A stretch of 64,000 nucleotides of DNA from the IMG/VR virus record IMGVR_UViG_3300020469_000023, positions 1-64,000 of that record; one strand, 5' to 3'. The translations under genes and the position numbers were made by a program. Numbering within the stretch: position 1 is the stretch's first letter; each line of letters begins with the position of its first letter. The notes under the pieces are model-generated. The model did no database searches. It was not told the DNA's origin and saw only the letters and a list, made by a program, of their open reading frames with translations. The stretch is from a virus. Below are positions 52,190 through 60,192 of this stretch, piece after piece.

Positions 52190-52675
52190 TTATGTCGCAT
52201 ACTTTGAAAAGAATGTAATTACAGTTCTATCTGTATTGCCATGTAAGGGGTGATGTGGTACGTTTGCATTGAAACAAACTGCACGATTGTATTTAAATGG
52301 AACTTCGTCACCATCTATCCAAGTGCCACCATTTCCTTCTAGATAAATGACACCTGAAAAGTCCCATGCTTTATCGATATGTGGCATGGGTGTAGATATG
52401 TTTTGTTCTAGTAAATGTTTGTAGAAAGTAATCCAACCAACTTTTACATCAAACATGTTTTGTATTTTATTGACGACCTCAGGAAGTTCGAACATAAGAT
52501 TTTTAGTTCGAAGTCCTGGCCATTTACCAATGGATTCGCTTTTATTATATTCTGCATATTGTTTTGCAGTATAATAATTAGAACTCTTAGAAAACTCTAA
52601 GACTTCATCTGGGTCATCAAGAAAGTTTTCAAATACTTGATATTTAGATTTTGACACTAAACTGTAAGGTTGCAT
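52190..52675 (-). CDS. 2OG-Fe(II) oxygenase-like protein
   Basis: About 161 residues from MQPYSLVSKS; MMTTILTNS at 52702 is an alternative start deeper in the neighbouring gene. STPMPHIDKAWDFSGVIYLEG has the HxD pair, GGTWIDG a Gly turn, and NANVPHHPLHGNTDRTVITFF the distal His and the Arg. A compact oxygenase similar to other phage members of the superfamily. Substrate unknown. Confidence 0.7.
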   Translation of the reverse strand: MQPYSLVSKSKYQVFENFLDDPDEVLEFSKSSNYYTAKQYAEYNKSESIGKWPGLRTKNLMFELPEVVNKIQNMFDVKVGWITFYKHLLEQNISTPMPHIDKAWDFSGVIYLEGNGGTWIDGDEVPFKYNRAVCFNANVPHHPLHGNTDRTVITFFSKYAT

Positions 52676-53261
52676 AGAGTTTGTCAGTATTGTAGTCATC
52701 ATCTACTATGTATCTAACCCCAGGTCTTATGGTGAACTTTTTACCAAACTTAATATTTAACATGATATCAGTTTGAATATCTTCAAATTCTCCATCATCT
52801 ACACCGTCTTTTGCGAATGCGAATCTAGGTGAGAAATGAACTTGTGGTGCAAAACAAACTAAGTCTGTATTACATTGAAAGTTACCTTTATACCCAAGAG
52901 TAGTTAAGACTCTAAAGTAATAAGTATCACTTTTTTTACCTTCGATATCACGATACTCTACTCTAGGTCTAAAGTAGAAACCATTATCTTGTTCAAAGAG
53001 TTTTACTGATACTCTAGGTCGGTGTTCAATTCTGCCTTTCTTTTCAATGTACTGATATGAAAAATCCCAGTTATCGAGTTTGTAACCCAATTGGTGATGT
53101 GTTTTATCAGTATCTCCAAAGTAATGTCTGTATCTCCAAGATACATTATTACCAAAACTATCTTTAGTTTGTAATTTTAAATTTAATTGTTCTCTATCCC
53201 AATTTTCTGCAGAAAATACTGATGCAGATAAGAACATTATTAATATTAAAAGGTTTTTCAT
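52644..53261 (-). CDS. Outer-membrane beta-barrel protein with signal peptide
   Basis: 205 residues. Signal peptide MKNLLILIMFLSASVFSA (cleavage near residue 18). The mature protein is built of amphipathic strands with alternating aromatic residues (VSWRYRHYFGDTDKTHHQLG; GFYFRPRVEYRDIEG; FTIRPGVRYIVDDD) and ends in a beta-signal-like LQFSVKI. About eight to ten strands, resembling DUF2490-type barrels. It has its own early promoter and is divergent from the curli-like operon. A phage-encoded barrel could alter the host surface or block receptors. Confidence 0.75.
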   Translation of the reverse strand: MKNLLILIMFLSASVFSAENWDREQLNLKLQTKDSFGNNVSWRYRHYFGDTDKTHHQLGYKLDNWDFSYQYIEKKGRIEHRPRVSVKLFEQDNGFYFRPRVEYRDIEGKKSDTYYFRVLTTLGYKGNFQCNTDLVCFAPQVHFSPRFAFAKDGVDDGEFEDIQTDIMLNIKFGKKFTIRPGVRYIVDDDYNTDKLYATLQFSVKI

Positions 53262-53291: not shown

Positions 53292-53320
53292 ATTATACTC
53301 GCACTAACAAGAATTGTCAA
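53292..53320 (-). promoter_or_regulatory. Early promoter of the beta-barrel gene
   Basis: Minus-strand TTGACA (53315-53320), 17 bp, TATAAT (53292-53297), perfect, with spacer start ATTCTTG. It is 41 bp from the oppositely directed late box at 53361-53368. Confidence 0.85.
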
Positions 53321-53360: not shown

Positions 53361-53368
53361 TATAAATA
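53361..53368 (+). promoter_or_regulatory. T4-type late promoter of the curli-like operon
   Basis: Exact TATAAATA on the plus strand, seven bases before the ATG at 53376. No sigma70-like promoter is visible on this strand, so the operon 53376-60192 is predicted to be late. The intergenic region 53262-53375 holds only these two divergent promoters. Confidence 0.7.
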
Positions 53369-53375
53369 GACGTGT

Positions 53376-53672
53376 ATGAACAATATAATGAAATTATTAA
53401 TGGAAGTGGGTATCCCGATTGGTAGTGCAATCATCATGGGGTTCTTTATCTTTCTGACTTTAAAATACATTTTAGATAGTGTTGGTGGTTCTGTTACAGG
53501 TCTTACTAACATTATGAATGGTTTAGAGTCAAGAGTTCGTCAAATGAATAATGATATGATAAAGATTGACTTGTTAGTAAGTGAGTCTTTAGATTTAAGA
53601 CCAGACATCGATAGAGTTGCGAGAGCAGAAAACTTTATGGAAGATGGTAAGATAGACTCTAGGAGAGATTAA
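53376..53672 (+). CDS. Small membrane/coiled-coil protein A of the curli-like operon
   Basis: 98 residues. The N-terminal membrane helix (EVGIPIGSAIIMGFFIFLTLKYI, about residues 10-33) is followed by a short coiled coil (RQMNNDMIKIDLLVSE) and a charged tail. It is paralogous in plan to the next gene (EVG-x-P, MG-[FY]-F-I, then [MN]-x-ND-[LM]-I). Holin- or scaffold-like proteins have this form. As first genes of the operon they may anchor the system in the inner membrane. Confidence 0.65.
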   Translation: MNNIMKLLMEVGIPIGSAIIMGFFIFLTLKYILDSVGGSVTGLTNIMNGLESRVRQMNNDMIKIDLLVSESLDLRPDIDRVARAENFMEDGKIDSRRD

Positions 53673-54001
53673 TGAACAGCAGTAATATTAATCAAATTGT
53701 TTTGATTATTGATGAGGTTGGTTATCCAGTTTTAATGGCAATCGGTATGGGATATTTTATCTGGTATGTTTGGAAGTATGTGACGAAAGAACTAAAACCA
53801 AAAATTGGTGCTTCACATAAGACTCTTATTAAATTATTAGACCAGATTAGAATGCTTGACAATGACTTGATACGATTACAACAGAAAGTAAATACTGTAA
53901 TCGAATATAGAAAACAAGAAGAATTAAAAAAACAAGGGCAAGAAGATGAAGACAGCACAGTATATATTAATGATATGGGTAAGTCTAACGATAACAAGTA
54001 A
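53672..54001 (+). CDS. Small membrane/coiled-coil protein B of the curli-like operon
   Basis: 109 residues. A membrane helix (EVGYPVLMAIGMGYFIWYVWKYV) begins near residue 15. A coiled coil (KLLDQIRMLDNDLIRLQQK) and an acidic/Lys tail follow. Its start overlaps the stop of its paralogue by one base and its end overlaps csgF by 56 bases. The duplicate with matching layout suggests a hetero-oligomer. Confidence 0.65.
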   Translation: MNSSNINQIVLIIDEVGYPVLMAIGMGYFIWYVWKYVTKELKPKIGASHKTLIKLLDQIRMLDNDLIRLQQKVNTVIEYRKQEELKKQGQEDEDSTVYINDMGKSNDNK

Positions 54002-54428
54002 TTTGTTTGCTGACCAGATAGTTCATAAATTTAAATCTCCATCATTTAGTGGTATTGGACAATCGTCACACTATTTAACAATAGAGAATCAACAGAAGTC
54101 TCGTAGAGATAAGATTCAAGAAGATATCGAATCTGCAATTGCAAAAGCAGAACGTGAAGCAGATAGTACGACCCATGCTAAGTTCCTTAGAAACTTAGAG
54201 TCAAGAATCTATGCTCAAATATCAAAACAATTAGTTGACCAAATGTTTGGTGATGGAGTAAATGAAGGTTCAATAGAAGGTTTCTTTGATATGCTTGGTA
54301 ATACTGTAGCATACGAATTATGTACAGGTTGTGGTGATGATGGTATTGATGTAATTAGAATTACAATTACAGGCGATGATAATACAACAACAACATTAGA
54401 TGTACCAGTAGGTAGTGGAGCATTTTAG
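53946..54428 (+). CDS. csgF: CsgF-like curli assembly factor
   Basis: 160 residues. Signal peptide (MKTAQYILMIWVSLTITSNLFA, cleavage near 22). The mature start IVHKFKSPSFSGIGQSSHYL matches the CsgF N-terminus (F-x-x-P-x-F-G-G), the part that inserts into the CsgG pore. A helical middle and beta-strand end (VIRITITGDDNTTTTLDV) also follow CsgF. An insertion with two Cys (ELCTGCGDDG) is unlike E. coli CsgF. It is directly followed by csgG (TAGTG overlap), so the pore and its extracellular cap are coupled. Confidence 0.82.
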   Translation: MKTAQYILMIWVSLTITSNLFADQIVHKFKSPSFSGIGQSSHYLTIENQQKSRRDKIQEDIESAIAKAEREADSTTHAKFLRNLESRIYAQISKQLVDQMFGDGVNEGSIEGFFDMLGNTVAYELCTGCGDDGIDVIRITITGDDNTTTTLDVPVGSGAF

Positions 54429-55300
54429 TGAAAATATTTTTATTGATAGGAGTATTCGTTCTATCAAGTTGTGCTAGTATTCCTTCTTTCTCACGTATAG
54501 ATTGTGATGAAAGAGAATTAGCATGTCGAGAAAGTGCAACTATAGAAAAGTTGCCATCGACAGCAGAATTAAAAAAAGTGCCAGGTCCAAGTAATGGTAA
54601 ACCTGTAGTAGTTGCAGTTTATGGATTTACAGACAAAACTGGCCAAAGAAAAAGTAGAGATACATTTTCAGATTTTTCTACTGCAGTAACACAAGGTGCA
54701 GATTTACTTGTTATTGATGCACTTAAAACTGCAAGTAATGGAGAGTGGTTTAGAGTAGTTGAGAGAACTAATATAGATGCTCTCATAAGAGAAAGGCAAA
54801 TAATAAGAAGTTCTAGAGAAGAGTTTAAAGAAGATAAACAACTAGCATCTTTAGTATTTGCAGGGATTTTAATTGATGGTGGTGTTGTTGGGTACGACAC
54901 TAACATCGAAAGTGGTGGTCGTGGAGCAAGATACTTAGGTATCGGACACAATACATCATATAGAAGAGATTCAGTAATTGTTAGTCTAAGGGCAACCTCA
55001 ACACTAACAGGTGAAATTTTAATGAATGTTCAGGCGAAAAAAACTATTTTGTCTGTCGGTGGCGGTTATGATTTATTCCGATTCTTTGATATGGATACAA
55101 AGTTATTGGAATTTGAAGATGGTAACGGATTTAACGAAAGTGTAACGTTTGCAGTTCGCTCCGCTATTGAAGTTGCCGTATTAGAACTTATTTACCAAGG
55201 ACACGATAGAGGTTTTTGGAAAATGAAAAGTGACCATCGTCACCCACACTTAAGTGATGGGACTAACGATAAACACTTAATAACTAAGGAGAAAGAATGA
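54428..55300 (+). CDS. csgG: CsgG-like outer-membrane secretion lipoprotein
   Basis: 290 residues with a GTG start overlapping the csgF stop. Lipobox LSSC (Cys15) gives an outer-membrane lipoprotein. KPVVVAVYGFTDKTGQRKS and WFRVVERTNIDALIRERQII are CsgG signatures. Then LIDGGVVGYDTNIESGGRGARYLG spans the first transmembrane hairpin and VSLRATSTLTGEILMNVQ the second. Family role: nonameric diffusion pore that exports curli subunits across the outer membrane. A His-rich C-terminal extension is present. Confidence 0.93.
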   Translation: MKIFLLIGVFVLSSCASIPSFSRIDCDERELACRESATIEKLPSTAELKKVPGPSNGKPVVVAVYGFTDKTGQRKSRDTFSDFSTAVTQGADLLVIDALKTASNGEWFRVVERTNIDALIRERQIIRSSREEFKEDKQLASLVFAGILIDGGVVGYDTNIESGGRGARYLGIGHNTSYRRDSVIVSLRATSTLTGEILMNVQAKKTILSVGGGYDLFRFFDMDTKLLEFEDGNGFNESVTFAVRSAIEVAVLELIYQGHDRGFWKMKSDHRHPHLSDGTNDKHLITKEKE

Positions 55301-56214
55301 GAACTTTAATTCTCGCTTTATTATTAACAGCAAGTGCTTTTGCATTTGCGGATAATGAAATATATATCGAGCAAGTTGGTGAAGGTGTAGAAATTATTAT
55401 TGAACAAACAGGTAATGGAAACTTGATTGGGCAAAATACTAGCACTGGTGCTAATGCGACCGACATGAAACTGCAGATAGGTAACTCTAATGCATATTGG
55501 TTGTTTAATGGAAGTAACAACTTACTATTTGGTGATATCAACTCAGATGGTTCAAACATTGACTATAATGTTCAAGGTTCGAACAACAGAATCAATCAAT
55601 TGATTGGTACTGTAACTGGTAATACTAGTAGTAATCAAAGTGCAGATGCCATTGATATGAATGTAGATGTTCAAGGTGATTATAACCAGACAACGTTTAG
55701 GTTAGGTAATAAATCTGAAACTTACAATACACCTCATAATTTAGGTGATGGTGCATTTTTTAACAATAGTGCAGGTTTTAAAACGTATAGCAATCATACA
55801 TTTACAGGTAGTAACATCACGGGTTATGGAACTTATGGTGGTAATGCTACAAGTAACTATGGGTCAAATGCCGCATATTGGGATGCCTGGAATATTACAG
55901 AAGGTAGTGCTGATGGTGCCAACATTGACTTATTAGTTGATGGCAGTGGTGCTTCAAATACTATTGGTGCATTTATAAACTCTTCAAATGCTGTTTGGGA
56001 TTGGGACATAACTGGTTCAAATAACTGGATATTAACAACTCAAGAAGATGGAAGTGATAATAAAATATCTGTTGATTTAACAGGTGATAAAAACTATGTA
56101 TTTGTTGGTCAAAGAACAGGTACAAGTATAAGTGGTGCAGAGGCGATATTAGATGCAAGTTTTGTTACAGACGGTTCAGAAATTACGATTATTCAACAAG
56201 ATACTGGCGAGTAA
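55297..56214 (+). CDS. Curlin-repeat secreted protein 1 (CsgA/CsgB-like)
   Basis: 305 residues, about twice CsgA. Signal peptide ends AFAFA/DN at residue 18. The mature start NEIYIEQVGEGVEIIIEQTG has the Q-x-G spacing of curlin repeats. Further Asn/Gly/Ser-rich strands repeat with motifs like GSNNRINQLIG, GDYNQTTFRLGN and GDKNYVFVGQ, and the end is VTDGSEITIIQQD. Likely a beta-solenoid or amyloid substrate of CsgG/CsgF. It is non-canonical: repeats are irregular and long loops contain Trp and Tyr. AAGGAGAAAG precedes the ATG. Confidence 0.8.
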   Translation: MRTLILALLLTASAFAFADNEIYIEQVGEGVEIIIEQTGNGNLIGQNTSTGANATDMKLQIGNSNAYWLFNGSNNLLFGDINSDGSNIDYNVQGSNNRINQLIGTVTGNTSSNQSADAIDMNVDVQGDYNQTTFRLGNKSETYNTPHNLGDGAFFNNSAGFKTYSNHTFTGSNITGYGTYGGNATSNYGSNAAYWDAWNITEGSADGANIDLLVDGSGASNTIGAFINSSNAVWDWDITGSNNWILTTQEDGSDNKISVDLTGDKNYVFVGQRTGTSISGAEAILDASFVTDGSEITIIQQDTGE

Positions 56215-57304
56215 TCTTATTCTAATAGGGTCTGTTTATGCAGACTCTATTGGCGATATTCGTGAGCATACTGGTAGTGCGGCAATCGAAAGAGAATCTG
56301 GTGAAGAACTAGTTGTCTCTCCTGCTTTTTTACCTGATGTTGAAATGAATGATACTGCTATTACTGGTAATGGCAGAATGTTAATTGAATTCAAAGATAA
56401 AGAAGAATTAGCATTGACTGAACACACAAAGATTTATATTGATGAAGTATATTATGACCCTGACCCATCGCTGTCAAAGATGACTATGCGAATGGCACTT
56501 GGTACTGCTAGATTTACATCTGGTAGAGGTGAAATGATTGACAAAGCAAACATTGACATTTCAACACCAACTGCTCAGATAGGTATTCGGGGAACAGATT
56601 TTACAACTACAGTTGATGAACTCGGTAGAACGTTAGTTGTATTATTACCTGATGAAAATGGAGAATCATCTGGTGAAATATTTATTACAAATGCTGGTGG
56701 GACAATTACATTGAATGAAGCATATCAATCTATGATGCTTCAATCATTTGATGTAATGCCACAAAGAACAGTTATTCTTGAAGGCATTACGCCCGATTCA
56801 ATTAATAATATGTTTATTGTTAATCCACCAAAAGAGATAAAAGAAGTAGAAGCAGAAGGAGAAAGTAAAGAAGACGATGCTCAAGGTATTTTAGATGTAG
56901 ACTTCTTGGCATACGATGCCTTAGAAGAAGATGCTTTAGAAGATAAAGGAGAATTAGAATATACAGAACTAGATATTGACTTATTAGATGTTGAGTTTCT
57001 TCAAGACGTATTAGACATTACTGCTGACCTCGATAGAATAAATGAGATTGATAGAGAGGTTGCAGATATAGGTAATGTTAACATTGAAGGTACTCAAGTA
57101 GGGTTTGATGATGATAGTCAATATAGTACGTTTGTTAATAAAGAAGAAGAGACGATTGTTATGACTAGAGAAGTAGAAGGTGTAATTAGAATAACTCATG
57201 CGATTTATACAAATGCAGTTATTGAAACATACACTAACCAAAAACCAAGCGAGATAACTTTAGGAGATGGTTCAGATGCAAGAATCATAATAATACAAGA
57301 ATGA
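56153..57304 (+). CDS. FecR-domain periplasmic protein
   Basis: 383 residues. Signal sequence to about residue 30 (GSVYA/DS). The FecR domain is at about 34-185: ALTEHTKIYIDEV, MRMALGTARFTSGRG, and TAQIGIRGTDFTTTVDELG, the last a hallmark block. A long acidic segment (225-330, Glu/Asp-rich) and a beta-rich end follow. In bacteria FecR domains relay outer-membrane signals; stand-alone secreted FecR proteins often neighbour CHASE2 cyclases, from memory. The gene overlaps curlin 1 by 62 bases, a tight coupling. Confidence 0.88.
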   Translation: MQVLLQTVQKLRLFNKILASNLILIGSVYADSIGDIREHTGSAAIERESGEELVVSPAFLPDVEMNDTAITGNGRMLIEFKDKEELALTEHTKIYIDEVYYDPDPSLSKMTMRMALGTARFTSGRGEMIDKANIDISTPTAQIGIRGTDFTTTVDELGRTLVVLLPDENGESSGEIFITNAGGTITLNEAYQSMMLQSFDVMPQRTVILEGITPDSINNMFIVNPPKEIKEVEAEGESKEDDAQGILDVDFLAYDALEEDALEDKGELEYTELDIDLLDVEFLQDVLDITADLDRINEIDREVADIGNVNIEGTQVGFDDDSQYSTFVNKEEETIVMTREVEGVIRITHAIYTNAVIETYTNQKPSEITLGDGSDARIIIIQE

Positions 57305-58131
57305 TTAAATTTTTAAAAGAAAATACATCACCACAAGGTATAAAGACTATCGTAACAATGTGGATTTTATTTGCATTTGCTATTGGTGGTTGTGAATATG
57401 TATATGCTGATAATGAAGTATATATTACTCAAAGTGGTGAAGGTACAAAGTTGTTTATCGAACAAGAAGGTAAAGATAATAAAGTAGACTTCTCAATGCA
57501 ACATCAGGGTAATGAAGTAAAAATAATCCAGCATGGGCATAATAATAAAATAGCATATGGACATTGGGGTTCACTAACTAGTGGAGATATAGATGGAACG
57601 TTTAATTCATTAGACTTTGCACAAATATGTGGACGTGGTTCAAGTTGTAAAGAATCTGATATCGGTCTGCATATCTATGGAGACAATAACTCAATACGTT
57701 GGGGACAAGGATATATTTTAAGTTCTCCGACTTCAACTTGGACATGGGACGGAAGTGAAGGTGGTGGTCATCATCTAACTTTAGATGTTCATGGAGATAA
57801 TAATAATGTTGCGGGTAGTCAAAGAAACTCATCTGCAGGCATCTATAGTGAACACCAAGCAGATATCTATCTTTACTCTAATAACAATAGTGTTTTTTGG
57901 AGACAAAATACAGATGGTGTTAAAGATGTAAATTTATACACATATAATGATGGTAATAATATTACTGGTTATCAATCTGGTTATGCAACACATACTGCAA
58001 ATATATCTTTAACTGGGTCTAGTCCAACAACATTAAATTTAACTCAAGAAGGTAACTCTGCTCAATCATATTCACTATCACAAAACTGCCAAACTATGGG
58101 TGGTTGTAGCATTTCTGTTACACAACAATAA
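57301..58131 (+). CDS. Curlin-repeat secreted protein 2
   Basis: 276 residues. A longer signal segment (hydrophobic 18-35) ends YVYA/DNEVYI, so the mature start NEVYITQSGEGTKLFIEQEG is nearly the same as that of curlin 1. Repeats such as GNEVKIIQHGHNNKIAYG, GDNNSIRWGQG and GDNNNVAGSQRN show the curlin-type N-x-x-x-x-Q spacing. Two Cys pairs are present (ICGRGSSC, NCQTMGGC). An IGGC before the cleavage site could alternatively be a lipobox. ATGA overlap with the FecR gene. The two proteins may be a major/minor subunit pair like CsgA/CsgB. Confidence 0.78.
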   Translation: MIKFLKENTSPQGIKTIVTMWILFAFAIGGCEYVYADNEVYITQSGEGTKLFIEQEGKDNKVDFSMQHQGNEVKIIQHGHNNKIAYGHWGSLTSGDIDGTFNSLDFAQICGRGSSCKESDIGLHIYGDNNSIRWGQGYILSSPTSTWTWDGSEGGGHHLTLDVHGDNNNVAGSQRNSSAGIYSEHQADIYLYSNNNSVFWRQNTDGVKDVNLYTYNDGNNITGYQSGYATHTANISLTGSSPTTLNLTQEGNSAQSYSLSQNCQTMGGCSISVTQQ

Positions 58132-58136
58132 AGACA

Positions 58137-59966
58137 ATGTATAATTGGAAAGTTGTTCTCGTAACAATAGCATTACTTGTAAGTGTTCGTATTGCTGACC
58201 CTAAATTAGTAGAGCAGTTTCGTTTAAACTATTTTGATTCACTTCAATATTTACAAGAACCCGTAGACTCTGGTATTGTTTTAGTTGATATTGATGAAAA
58301 GTCTTTAGAGCAATTTGGACAGTTTCCATTTCCACGTGATATCTATGCACAAGAATTAAGTAAGAATGGTGCATTGTCTTTGTATGTAATGAATATGAGT
58401 TTTACAGAAGCAGATAGATTTGGTGGTGATGAAGACTTAGCAAACGTGATGAATCTTCGTGAAGTTATATTATCTTCTATTCCTACAAACGTAACAAATA
58501 AAGGCGACAAACCATTTCTTGGTTTTGGCAAACTAGGTAAAGGTAACCCAAGTAATTGGTTATATAACTACAAAGGTATTTCTACACCAATAAAAGAATT
58601 AAATCCTGTTGGAGTTGGTGTTGTAAGTGCGGCACCAAGTGTTGATGGTATAGTTCGTGAAGCACCCTTAATGGTAATTGCAAACGAACATATCTATCCT
58701 TCTCTTGCATTAGAAACTTTACGTGTTTGGAATCGTCAACCTAATTATGCAATGAAAGTAAAAGAAGCAGGTGTTGAATGGGTAAGAATGGGTAAACTAG
58801 ATAAAATGTCCACTACACCTAACTCTAATATTCAGATTGCATATTGGAATAATTTTAAACGTATTTCTTTTGGTGAACCAATGCCAGATGGGCAAATGTA
58901 TATTATAGGACTATCTGCTGGTGGATTGGTAAACCCAGTACCAACACCCATGGGTGCAATGTACCCACATGATGTTCAAGCAAACTTAATTCAAACTGTC
59001 GTGAGCGGTGTACAAATACAAAGACATTTCTTTCTTGAACAGTTAGAAATACTTGTTCTGATAATAAGTACACTATTAATACTACTTATGGTATATAGAT
59101 TGCCTACGTATTTAAGTGGTATACTATCTCTTGCAATGATTGGTGGTATAGTTGCAACAGGACTATATTATTGGTATACTGCTCTGTTACTTATTGATGT
59201 AGTTTACACGTCACTGGCATTATTCCTAGTGTTTGGACATGCATCATTTAACAAGTACTACGTCACATACAAACTTAAGGAAATGATTAAAGGACAGTTT
59301 AAAACATATCTATCGCCAGATATGGTAGATAAACTTGCAGAAGACCCAAGTCTTTTAAAACTTGGTGGTGAAAGAAGAAACATGACTTTCTTTTTTATGG
59401 ATATTGTAGGGTTTACACCAATATCAGAACACTATAAAAACAATAATGACCCCGAAGGTCTAGTGGAATTAATTAATAACTTTTTAGATAGAACATCAAA
59501 TATTATACTAAATAATGGTGGTACTATTGATAAATACATGGGTGATTGTATAATGGCGTTTTGGAATGCTCCATTAGACAACAAGTATCATGCAGAACTT
59601 GCCTGTATATCTGCAATTCAAATAGAAAAAGAAGTAGGAGAAATTCAAGATGAATTTAAAAGAAAAAATCTACCTAGCATTAATGTTGGTATTGGTATTA
59701 ATACCAGTGATTGCATATGCGGTAATCTTGGTAGTCAATCCAGATTTGATTATTCAGTCATCGGAGATGGCGTCAATCTCGCCGCACGTCTGGAAGCATT
59801 AGCGGGTAGAGGCGATTATAAAAAACATATGACTATAGTTGGACAAGATACTGTTGATTCAATAGTTGTAAATGGATATAGTCAGAAAGATGTTATGTTT
59901 AATTACATTGATGAGATACAAGTAAAAGGTAAAGAAGAAAAAATAAAAATATATTCACCGAGTTAG
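58137..59966 (+). CDS. CHASE2 sensor - class III adenylate cyclase
   Basis: 609 residues. N-terminal membrane helix (4-20), extracytoplasmic CHASE2 domain (about 35-295; VLVDIDEKSLEQFGQFPFPRD and PLMVIANEHIYPSLALE), three membrane helices (about 302-367), then the cyclase (about 410-605). Metal Asp422 (FMDIVGFT) and Asp470 (KYMGDCIMAF), the adenine-selecting Lys466, and the transition-state Asn547 and Arg551 (GDGVNLAARLE) are all present, so it should be active and make cAMP. The periplasmic sensor faces the compartment of FecR and the curli subunits. It ends the regulatory part of the operon. Confidence 0.93.
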   Translation: MYNWKVVLVTIALLVSVRIADPKLVEQFRLNYFDSLQYLQEPVDSGIVLVDIDEKSLEQFGQFPFPRDIYAQELSKNGALSLYVMNMSFTEADRFGGDEDLANVMNLREVILSSIPTNVTNKGDKPFLGFGKLGKGNPSNWLYNYKGISTPIKELNPVGVGVVSAAPSVDGIVREAPLMVIANEHIYPSLALETLRVWNRQPNYAMKVKEAGVEWVRMGKLDKMSTTPNSNIQIAYWNNFKRISFGEPMPDGQMYIIGLSAGGLVNPVPTPMGAMYPHDVQANLIQTVVSGVQIQRHFFLEQLEILVLIISTLLILLMVYRLPTYLSGILSLAMIGGIVATGLYYWYTALLLIDVVYTSLALFLVFGHASFNKYYVTYKLKEMIKGQFKTYLSPDMVDKLAEDPSLLKLGGERRNMTFFFMDIVGFTPISEHYKNNNDPEGLVELINNFLDRTSNIILNNGGTIDKYMGDCIMAFWNAPLDNKYHAELACISAIQIEKEVGEIQDEFKRKNLPSINVGIGINTSDCICGNLGSQSRFDYSVIGDGVNLAARLEALAGRGDYKKHMTIVGQDTVDSIVVNGYSQKDVMFNYIDEIQVKGKEEKIKIYSPS

Positions 59967-59970
59967 CGTT

Positions 59971-60192
59971 ATGAAAAAAGTAGAGAGGTCTTTTTCAAGT
60001 GCAGTAAGAATGCCTTATCAAGATGCAATTGCATTTGCACTAAGACTTCATGACTTTCATATCGCACAATCTATTCAAGACTCAAAAAATAAAGAGTTTC
60101 ATAAAAAACAAGCACAAAGAATGCGAGATTGGTTAACTGATATGAAAGATTTTATTATTTCGAATGAGTCTTCTCATGAACATGAAGCATAA
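59971..60192 (+). CDS. Small basic protein at the end of the curli-like operon
   Basis: 73 residues, helical (SSAVRMPYQDAIAFALRLHDF and KKQAQRMRDWLTDMKDF), soluble, His-rich C-terminus. It lies four bases after the cyclase and converges with the DUF3310 gene, overlapping it by 38 bases. Function unknown. It could belong with the cyclase, but resemblance to a general phage protein cannot be excluded. Confidence 0.6.
   Translation: MKKVERSFSSAVRMPYQDAIAFALRLHDFHIAQSIQDSKNKEFHKKQAQRMRDWLTDMKDFIISNESSHEHEA

Follow-up and report, generated by a model that had tools for sequence, protein, structure and literature searches.

A probable curli-type secretion module in a T4-like marine phage, with a FecR protein as candidate fibre or pore partner

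The DNA analysed here (the window) comprises positions 1 to 64,000 of the IMG/VR virus record IMGVR_UViG_3300020469_000023, which is 99,095 bases long and contains a T4-type portal gene. We consider it probable that this T4-like marine phage carries the full set of genes for curli (type VIII) secretion of the alphaproteobacterial type and would use it to assemble curli at the cell surface late in infection. The predicted products are a pore with its cap or chaperone, two cargo proteins with curlin repeats, a FecR protein that has a C-terminal strand of curlin type, two small membrane proteins specific to the phages and, in most loci, a CHASE2 cyclase. The curli module is genuine, is nothing unusual in its phage group and, having been published before, is not new to science; new here are two corrected labels, a motif in the FecR tail, the late promoter and a cellular relative.

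Nine open reading frames (ORFs) follow one another on the + strand with gaps or overlaps of a few bases, and the early genes of the genome run in the opposite direction. An ORF check bore out the coordinates and the single strand given in the earlier note on this DNA, and the matches to CsgF, CsgG, FecR and CHASE2 that it proposed, together with one to Guanylate_cyc, all lay above the Pfam cut-offs. Two paralogous membrane proteins with a single helix each, not mentioned in that note, open the run.

53361..53368, + strand: T4-type late promoter octamer TATAAATA, first base 15 nucleotides (nt) before the first ATG
53376..53672, + strand: small membrane protein A, 98 amino acids (aa), one hydrophobic helix, phrog_18771, conserved end RxARAENFxEDGxxDxRRD
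53672..54001, + strand: small membrane protein B, 109 aa, paralogue of protein A, phrog_18771
53946..54428, + strand: CsgF, with signal peptide and the CsgG-binding-type motif FKSPSFSG, PF10614 (E 9.1e-9)
54428..55300, + strand: CsgG outer-membrane pore lipoprotein, lipobox LSSC, PF03783 (E 8e-46)
55297..56214, + strand: curlin-like protein 1, a secreted repeat protein, by family profile against 8c50 and PF07012
56153..57304, + strand: FecR protein with signal peptide, PF04773 (E 1.5e-8)
57301..58131, + strand: curlin-like protein 2, ending in SISVTQQ, nearest NCBIfam model CsgB
58137..59966, + strand: CHASE2-class III nucleotide cyclase, CHASE2 PF05226 (E 3e-29), Guanylate_cyc PF00211 (E 5e-17)
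59971..60192, + strand: 73-aa protein, function not assigned, present only in the nearest relatives (8 loci)

Both the CsgG pore and the CsgF protein of curli (type VIII) secretion were found, and CsgG aligns to the solved CsgG structures 3x2r/4uv2 (E 6e-46 against the solved E. coli protein). The description of the two repeat proteins as curlin-like was upheld by their common mature start DNE[IV]YIxQ and at the level of family profiles, but not for the proteins taken singly, whose Pfam curlin matches stayed under the cut-off (E 0.08 and 0.038). In the curlin-like 1 family, PF07012 was matched by 23 of 32 members (best E 1e-5), and the best match among the curlin-like 2 members reached E 1.7e-9. 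The family profiles also match the solved curli subunits 8c50 (E 3.8e-7 and 1.8e-4, the former with the curlin-like 1 profile) and CsgA 8enq (E 2e-4), so that curlin-repeat cargo of the CsgA/B kind is recognisable at the level of the family profile. Curlin-like protein 2 is closer to CsgB (PRK10101, E 3.2e-5) than to CsgA (0.048), and its AlphaFold2 model is a solenoid.

The survey of the module covered 84 phage loci, one of them that of the window, with counts limited by contig ends. Its order, written as T-T-F-G-c-R-c-A (membrane pair, CsgF, CsgG, curlin, FecR, curlin, cyclase), was unchanged in all 84 as far as the contigs reach. The membrane pair and CsgF were present in 71/71 loci, FecR and both curlins in 36/36, and the cyclase in 31/36; the five loci without a cyclase (L009, L011, L013, L014 and L072) are from some of this phage's nearest relatives. 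Scattered genes, named beforehand as the finding that would speak against a single co-conserved system, were not seen.

The octamer TATAAATA lies within 100 nt of the first module gene in 45 of 96 non-redundant co-oriented phage loci (1.7 expected). It is usually placed 13 or 15 nt ahead of that gene's ATG, so that the late message would be almost leaderless. Over the whole window the octamer shows no excess over chance (9 against 11 expected), and only its constant position ahead of the operon in different phages is significant. Fourteen perfect sigma-70 promoters were found in the 64-kb window, all on the - strand, where 0.08 were expected. The late timing assumed in the earlier note was thus strengthened, given a T4-type late promoter abutting the operon and sigma-70 promoters confined to the other strand, and the sequence supports the view that the module would be expressed late. 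As an observation apart, the 14 copies of TTGACA-17-TATAAT on the - strand form a strikingly strict set of host-type early promoters, and one of them, at 53292-53320 (-), is arranged back to back with the late curli promoter.

The occurrence of csgF and csgG in pelagimyophages has been reported (PMC7029224, Zaragoza-Solas 2020). The complete module was described in podo- and myophages (PMC9599517, Wittmers 2022) with a gene list of one or two 'HK', CsgF, CsgG, CsgA/B, FecR, a second CsgA/B and adenylate cyclase. In the passages of these two papers considered here, gene set and order are as here, whereas a non-kinase nature of 'HK', the curlin-like FecR tail, the late promoter and a tail-to-tail layout are not stated there. 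The order is also shared by HTVC008M (CsgG 47% identical) and by the eight-gene curli operon of phage Melnitz (CsgG 41% identical). Compared with csgBAC-csgDEFG of E. coli, the phage module is alike in its CsgG and CsgF homologues, its curlin repeats and a CsgB-like C-terminal tail; it differs by the absence of CsgC, CsgD, CsgE and the N22 signal and by the addition of FecR, the CHASE2 cyclase and the membrane pair.

Hyphomonas sp. TMED17 (L095) is a cellular case. Its operon csgF-csgG-curlin-FecR-CHASE2 cyclase follows the order of the phage module and lies on a contig of 705 kb, where TonB receptor and metabolic genes surround it, but it has one curlin only and no membrane pair. Operons of this type are rare: of 200 genomes in the same taxonomic order, only one other showed so much as a weak FecR match. 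FecR also adjoins a CHASE2 cyclase outside curli at 3 of 30 alphaproteobacterial loci. The Hyphomonas operon and these couples make it likely that the phage module goes back to an alphaproteobacterial curli operon that included a FecR-CHASE2 couple, the membrane pair and the second curlin being additions by the phages. Phage-specific changes in the CsgG constriction were considered and rejected, because in the sequences compared the positions of E. coli Tyr51/Asn55 differ in Hyphomonas CsgG also. CsgG was detected in 3 of 197 Pelagibacteraceae genomes, once on a short contig inside a metagenome-assembled genome of Pelagibacter (L096) and twice on a contig that also has a cyclase, at module distance and on the same strand; the short contig and these distances make stray phage DNA the likely reading. 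Several GTDB bins (L084-L093, L096 and L130, assigned to Sphingobacteriales, Planctomycetaceae, Pelagibacter and others) hold contigs with a partial phage-type module or a whole one, membrane pair included, and most likely represent phage contamination.

The main new claim of this study concerns FecR, which looks like a partner of the fibre or pore and not like a FecI-type regulator; we infer that it is a third curli partner that would dock to either of them. The AlphaFold2 model (47 sequences, mean predicted local distance difference test score, pLDDT, 81) starts with a signal peptide and a FecR domain at about 33-200; a helical linker of low prediction quality leads to a C-terminal beta domain of six strands at about 310-383 (pLDDT about 90), which ends in IIIIQE. 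A FecR domain is indeed present, by PF04773 above cut-off and by a Foldseek match of the domain model to the FecR-type domain of PupR (6ovk, E 2e-4). It also resembles 5ix9, a 'cell surface anchoring domain' from an RTX adhesin, both by Foldseek (E 1.8e-3, template modelling score 0.73 by target, 64 residues) and by sequence profile (E 0.021). A cytoplasmic anti-sigma region is absent from the protein, the model has no membrane helix beyond the signal peptide, and genes for a FecI sigma factor or a TonB receptor were found neither in the operon nor adjoining it. In view of the curlin-type tail and this layout, the role in periplasmic signalling previously suggested for FecR is judged less likely than one as fibre or pore partner.

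The tail motif was defined as [IV]x[IV]xQ within the last 12 residues, with a chance expectation of about 1 per family. It occurs in 63/65 FecR, 65/77 curlin 1 and 63/71 curlin 2 sequences, and elsewhere in the module in only 2 of 218 (cyclase 1/52, CsgF 1/78, CsgG 0/88). Among 44 aligned FecR tails the Gln is invariant, although identity to the tail of the window falls to 9%, and the two Ile positions are I/V in 41/44 and 44/44; these residues are, together with one Arg, the most conserved. The C-terminus of E. coli CsgB, AIRVTQR, is of the same type, and CsgA lacks it. The motif is likewise absent from two FecR proteins that adjoin CHASE2 cyclases outside curli loci.

The members of the membrane pair are 90-118 aa long; behind a single hydrophobic helix comes a charged part that probably forms a coiled coil. 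A search from protein B gave 80 loci. Wherever at least 3 kb follow downstream of the pair, the curli module adjoins it (56/56), co-directionally in 38 and on the opposite strand, tail-to-tail, in 18; in the four tail-to-tail loci that were read further, F-G-curlin-FecR-cyclase is complete up to csgF. Since the pair stays beside the module despite the inversion of the strand, a functional link is favoured over a shared promoter. By position, the pair would correspond to the proteins called histidine kinase in PMC9599517, and this assignment fits the fact that the paper left its 'HK' out of the trees as short, diverged or paralogous. The label is wrong for these tiny predicted membrane proteins, which have no kinase domain: no kinase match at E<1 was obtained in 24 pair members, HisKA/HATPase was not found, and a conserved phospho-acceptor His is absent from the alignments. 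The family search yielded no Pfam or PDB relative of weight, apart from a weak YvrJ match (E 0.15) in some members. The pair is absent from all surveyed alphaproteobacterial curli loci, Hyphomonas included, and whole-genome searches of Hyphomonas, Azospirillum and Pseudovibrio did not find it. A role as a general phage holin was rejected, because its occurrence is confined to curli-module loci.

Two small single-helix proteins that always adjoin a late-promoted module, some with the YvrJ resemblance, are what a device for lysis control might look like. For the csgF/csgG operon of Melnitz a function in lysis timing was proposed (PMC9004378), and a late-opened CsgG pore together with the pair could depolarise the envelope or make it leak, after the pinholin/secretin idea. 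We regard this as unlikely. CsgG resides in the outer membrane, which holds no proton gradient, and among 50,697 phage records the pair occurs only in HTVC008M and Melnitz, both carriers of csgG, which is not the distribution of a general holin. Furthermore, the Melnitz operon was treated as an incomplete pore, whereas the cargo genes here are complete and conserved; lysis control needs neither two curlins nor FecR, yet 36/36 loci retain all three, and their ends are conserved. Controlled leakage before lysis, one of the uses suggested in the earlier note, would leave these universally kept cargo genes unexplained.

The pore or the surface curlin may alternatively exclude rival phages, or the pore may admit larger nutrients (ideas from PMC7029224 and PMC9599517). 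The retention of the module in many phages of crowded host populations and the absence of the CsgE gate would agree with this. No match to CsgE was found in the operon; CsgE is, however, absent from Alphaproteobacteria generally (PMC3521004), so that its lack in the phage module does not imply an open pore and CsgE is not to be demanded of alphaproteobacterial-type curli. An uptake channel would also require no cargo, and the late promoter speaks against early exclusion. Both functions are thus improbable as the main explanation.

The cyclase had been described as complete, and rightly so, as both domains were matched and the alignment retains both metal Asp, the adenine-site Lys and the transition-state Asn/Arg, with Ser in place of the usual Thr/Asp at the adenine position. 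In the cyclase of Melnitz (L003 13655-15706) the surroundings of the active site are altered (VIKYIGDASMH; Asn to Ser in VSTAARIE), and the enzyme may have lost activity. The suggestion that the module reports by cyclic AMP (cAMP) was weakened. A search confined to cyclic nucleotide monophosphate (cNMP)-binding domains gave no match in this contig or in any of 20 related phages. The host is presumably SAR11-like, and 186 of 197 Pelagibacteraceae genomes have no such domain either; the other 11 contain it mostly within proteins of at least 870 aa. Class III cyclases occur in 3 of the 197 genomes and in none of the other 194; in two of the three, the contig concerned carries a phage-like module. 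A cAMP report would accordingly have no known receiver, and the cyclase may instead have a structural role, make a different nucleotide or act through a different receptor. A signalling circuit, in which FecR and CHASE2 sense the state of the envelope or fibre and cAMP reprogrammes the cell, is quite unlikely: the intact domains and the FecR-CHASE2 couples outside curli argue for it, but it has no known receiver, the cyclase is dispensable (absent in 5/36 loci), and FecR has neither the anti-sigma region nor the internal membrane helix found in FecI/FecR systems.

For late surface curli assembly, the reading we prefer, the following course is conceivable. The CsgG-CsgF pore would be inserted into the outer membrane late in infection, and both curlins would pass it and fold into a predicted curli-type solenoid fibre. 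FecR would act as an anchor comparable to CsgB: its C-terminal strand would attach to the fibre or to the mouth of the pore, and the FecR domain would face the periplasm or the cell surface. Assembly may be gated or sensed at the inner membrane, by the membrane pair together with the CHASE2 cyclase, and the outcome would be an anchored fibre that coats the host envelope around lysis. Its most likely use is perhaps adhesion or aggregation that brings progeny into more frequent contact with further hosts, or the blocking of rival phages. A more far-reaching version is tentative and in its entirety rather doubtful: FecR would be a new curli anchor, built of an adhesin-anchor-like domain and a short curlin-like solenoid with an I-x-I-x-Q docking end, and the pair would control the assembly of an envelope-spanning anchored fibre machine of a kind that E. 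coli curli does not have.

Several results weigh against late surface curli assembly and the place of FecR in it. OM43 cultures infected with Melnitz, which has the same module, showed no clumping (PMC9004378). The Hyphomonas FecR ends in FILE, without a Gln. Profile-profile comparison of the FecR tail gave no match with curlin 1 and a modest one with curlin 2 (hhalign, probability 31%, E 5e-4). Foldseek of the curlin-like 2 model against the PDB returned no significant curli entry, the best hit being the SufB beta-helix (E 8e-3). The N22 export signal of CsgA is absent from the phage curlins, which in their mature form start at the first repeat.

The module also occurs on virus contigs of 250-358 kb with a T4-type portal (G401, G402, G408 and G409; L077, L079, L189 and L229). 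These far exceed the known pelagimyophages (HTVC008M, 147 kb) and possibly belong to jumbo phages with other hosts. In the large phages, an extra 2-4 kb whose content varies by phage separates curlin 2 from the cyclase (L077 13842-17121; L079 13849-17635; L081 13650-15857). Judged by eye, the extra genes include one that is glycosyltransferase-like, one that is ferredoxin reductase-like and two for cytochrome-like secreted proteins. In the window, the divergent neighbour at 52644-53261 (-) encodes a small product resembling an outer-membrane beta-barrel (weak DUF2490 / OMP_b-brl) and adjoins the module in 11 of 84 loci.

The analysis corrects two current functional labels, 'histidine kinase' and 'iron regulator FecR'. 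The FecR tail, the membrane pair and the late promoter lead to testable predictions as to which proteins reach the surface, when they do so and which residue holds them there. Very many marine phages carry curli modules, while their hosts have none, and infection would therefore give the most abundant bacteria of the ocean a new surface.

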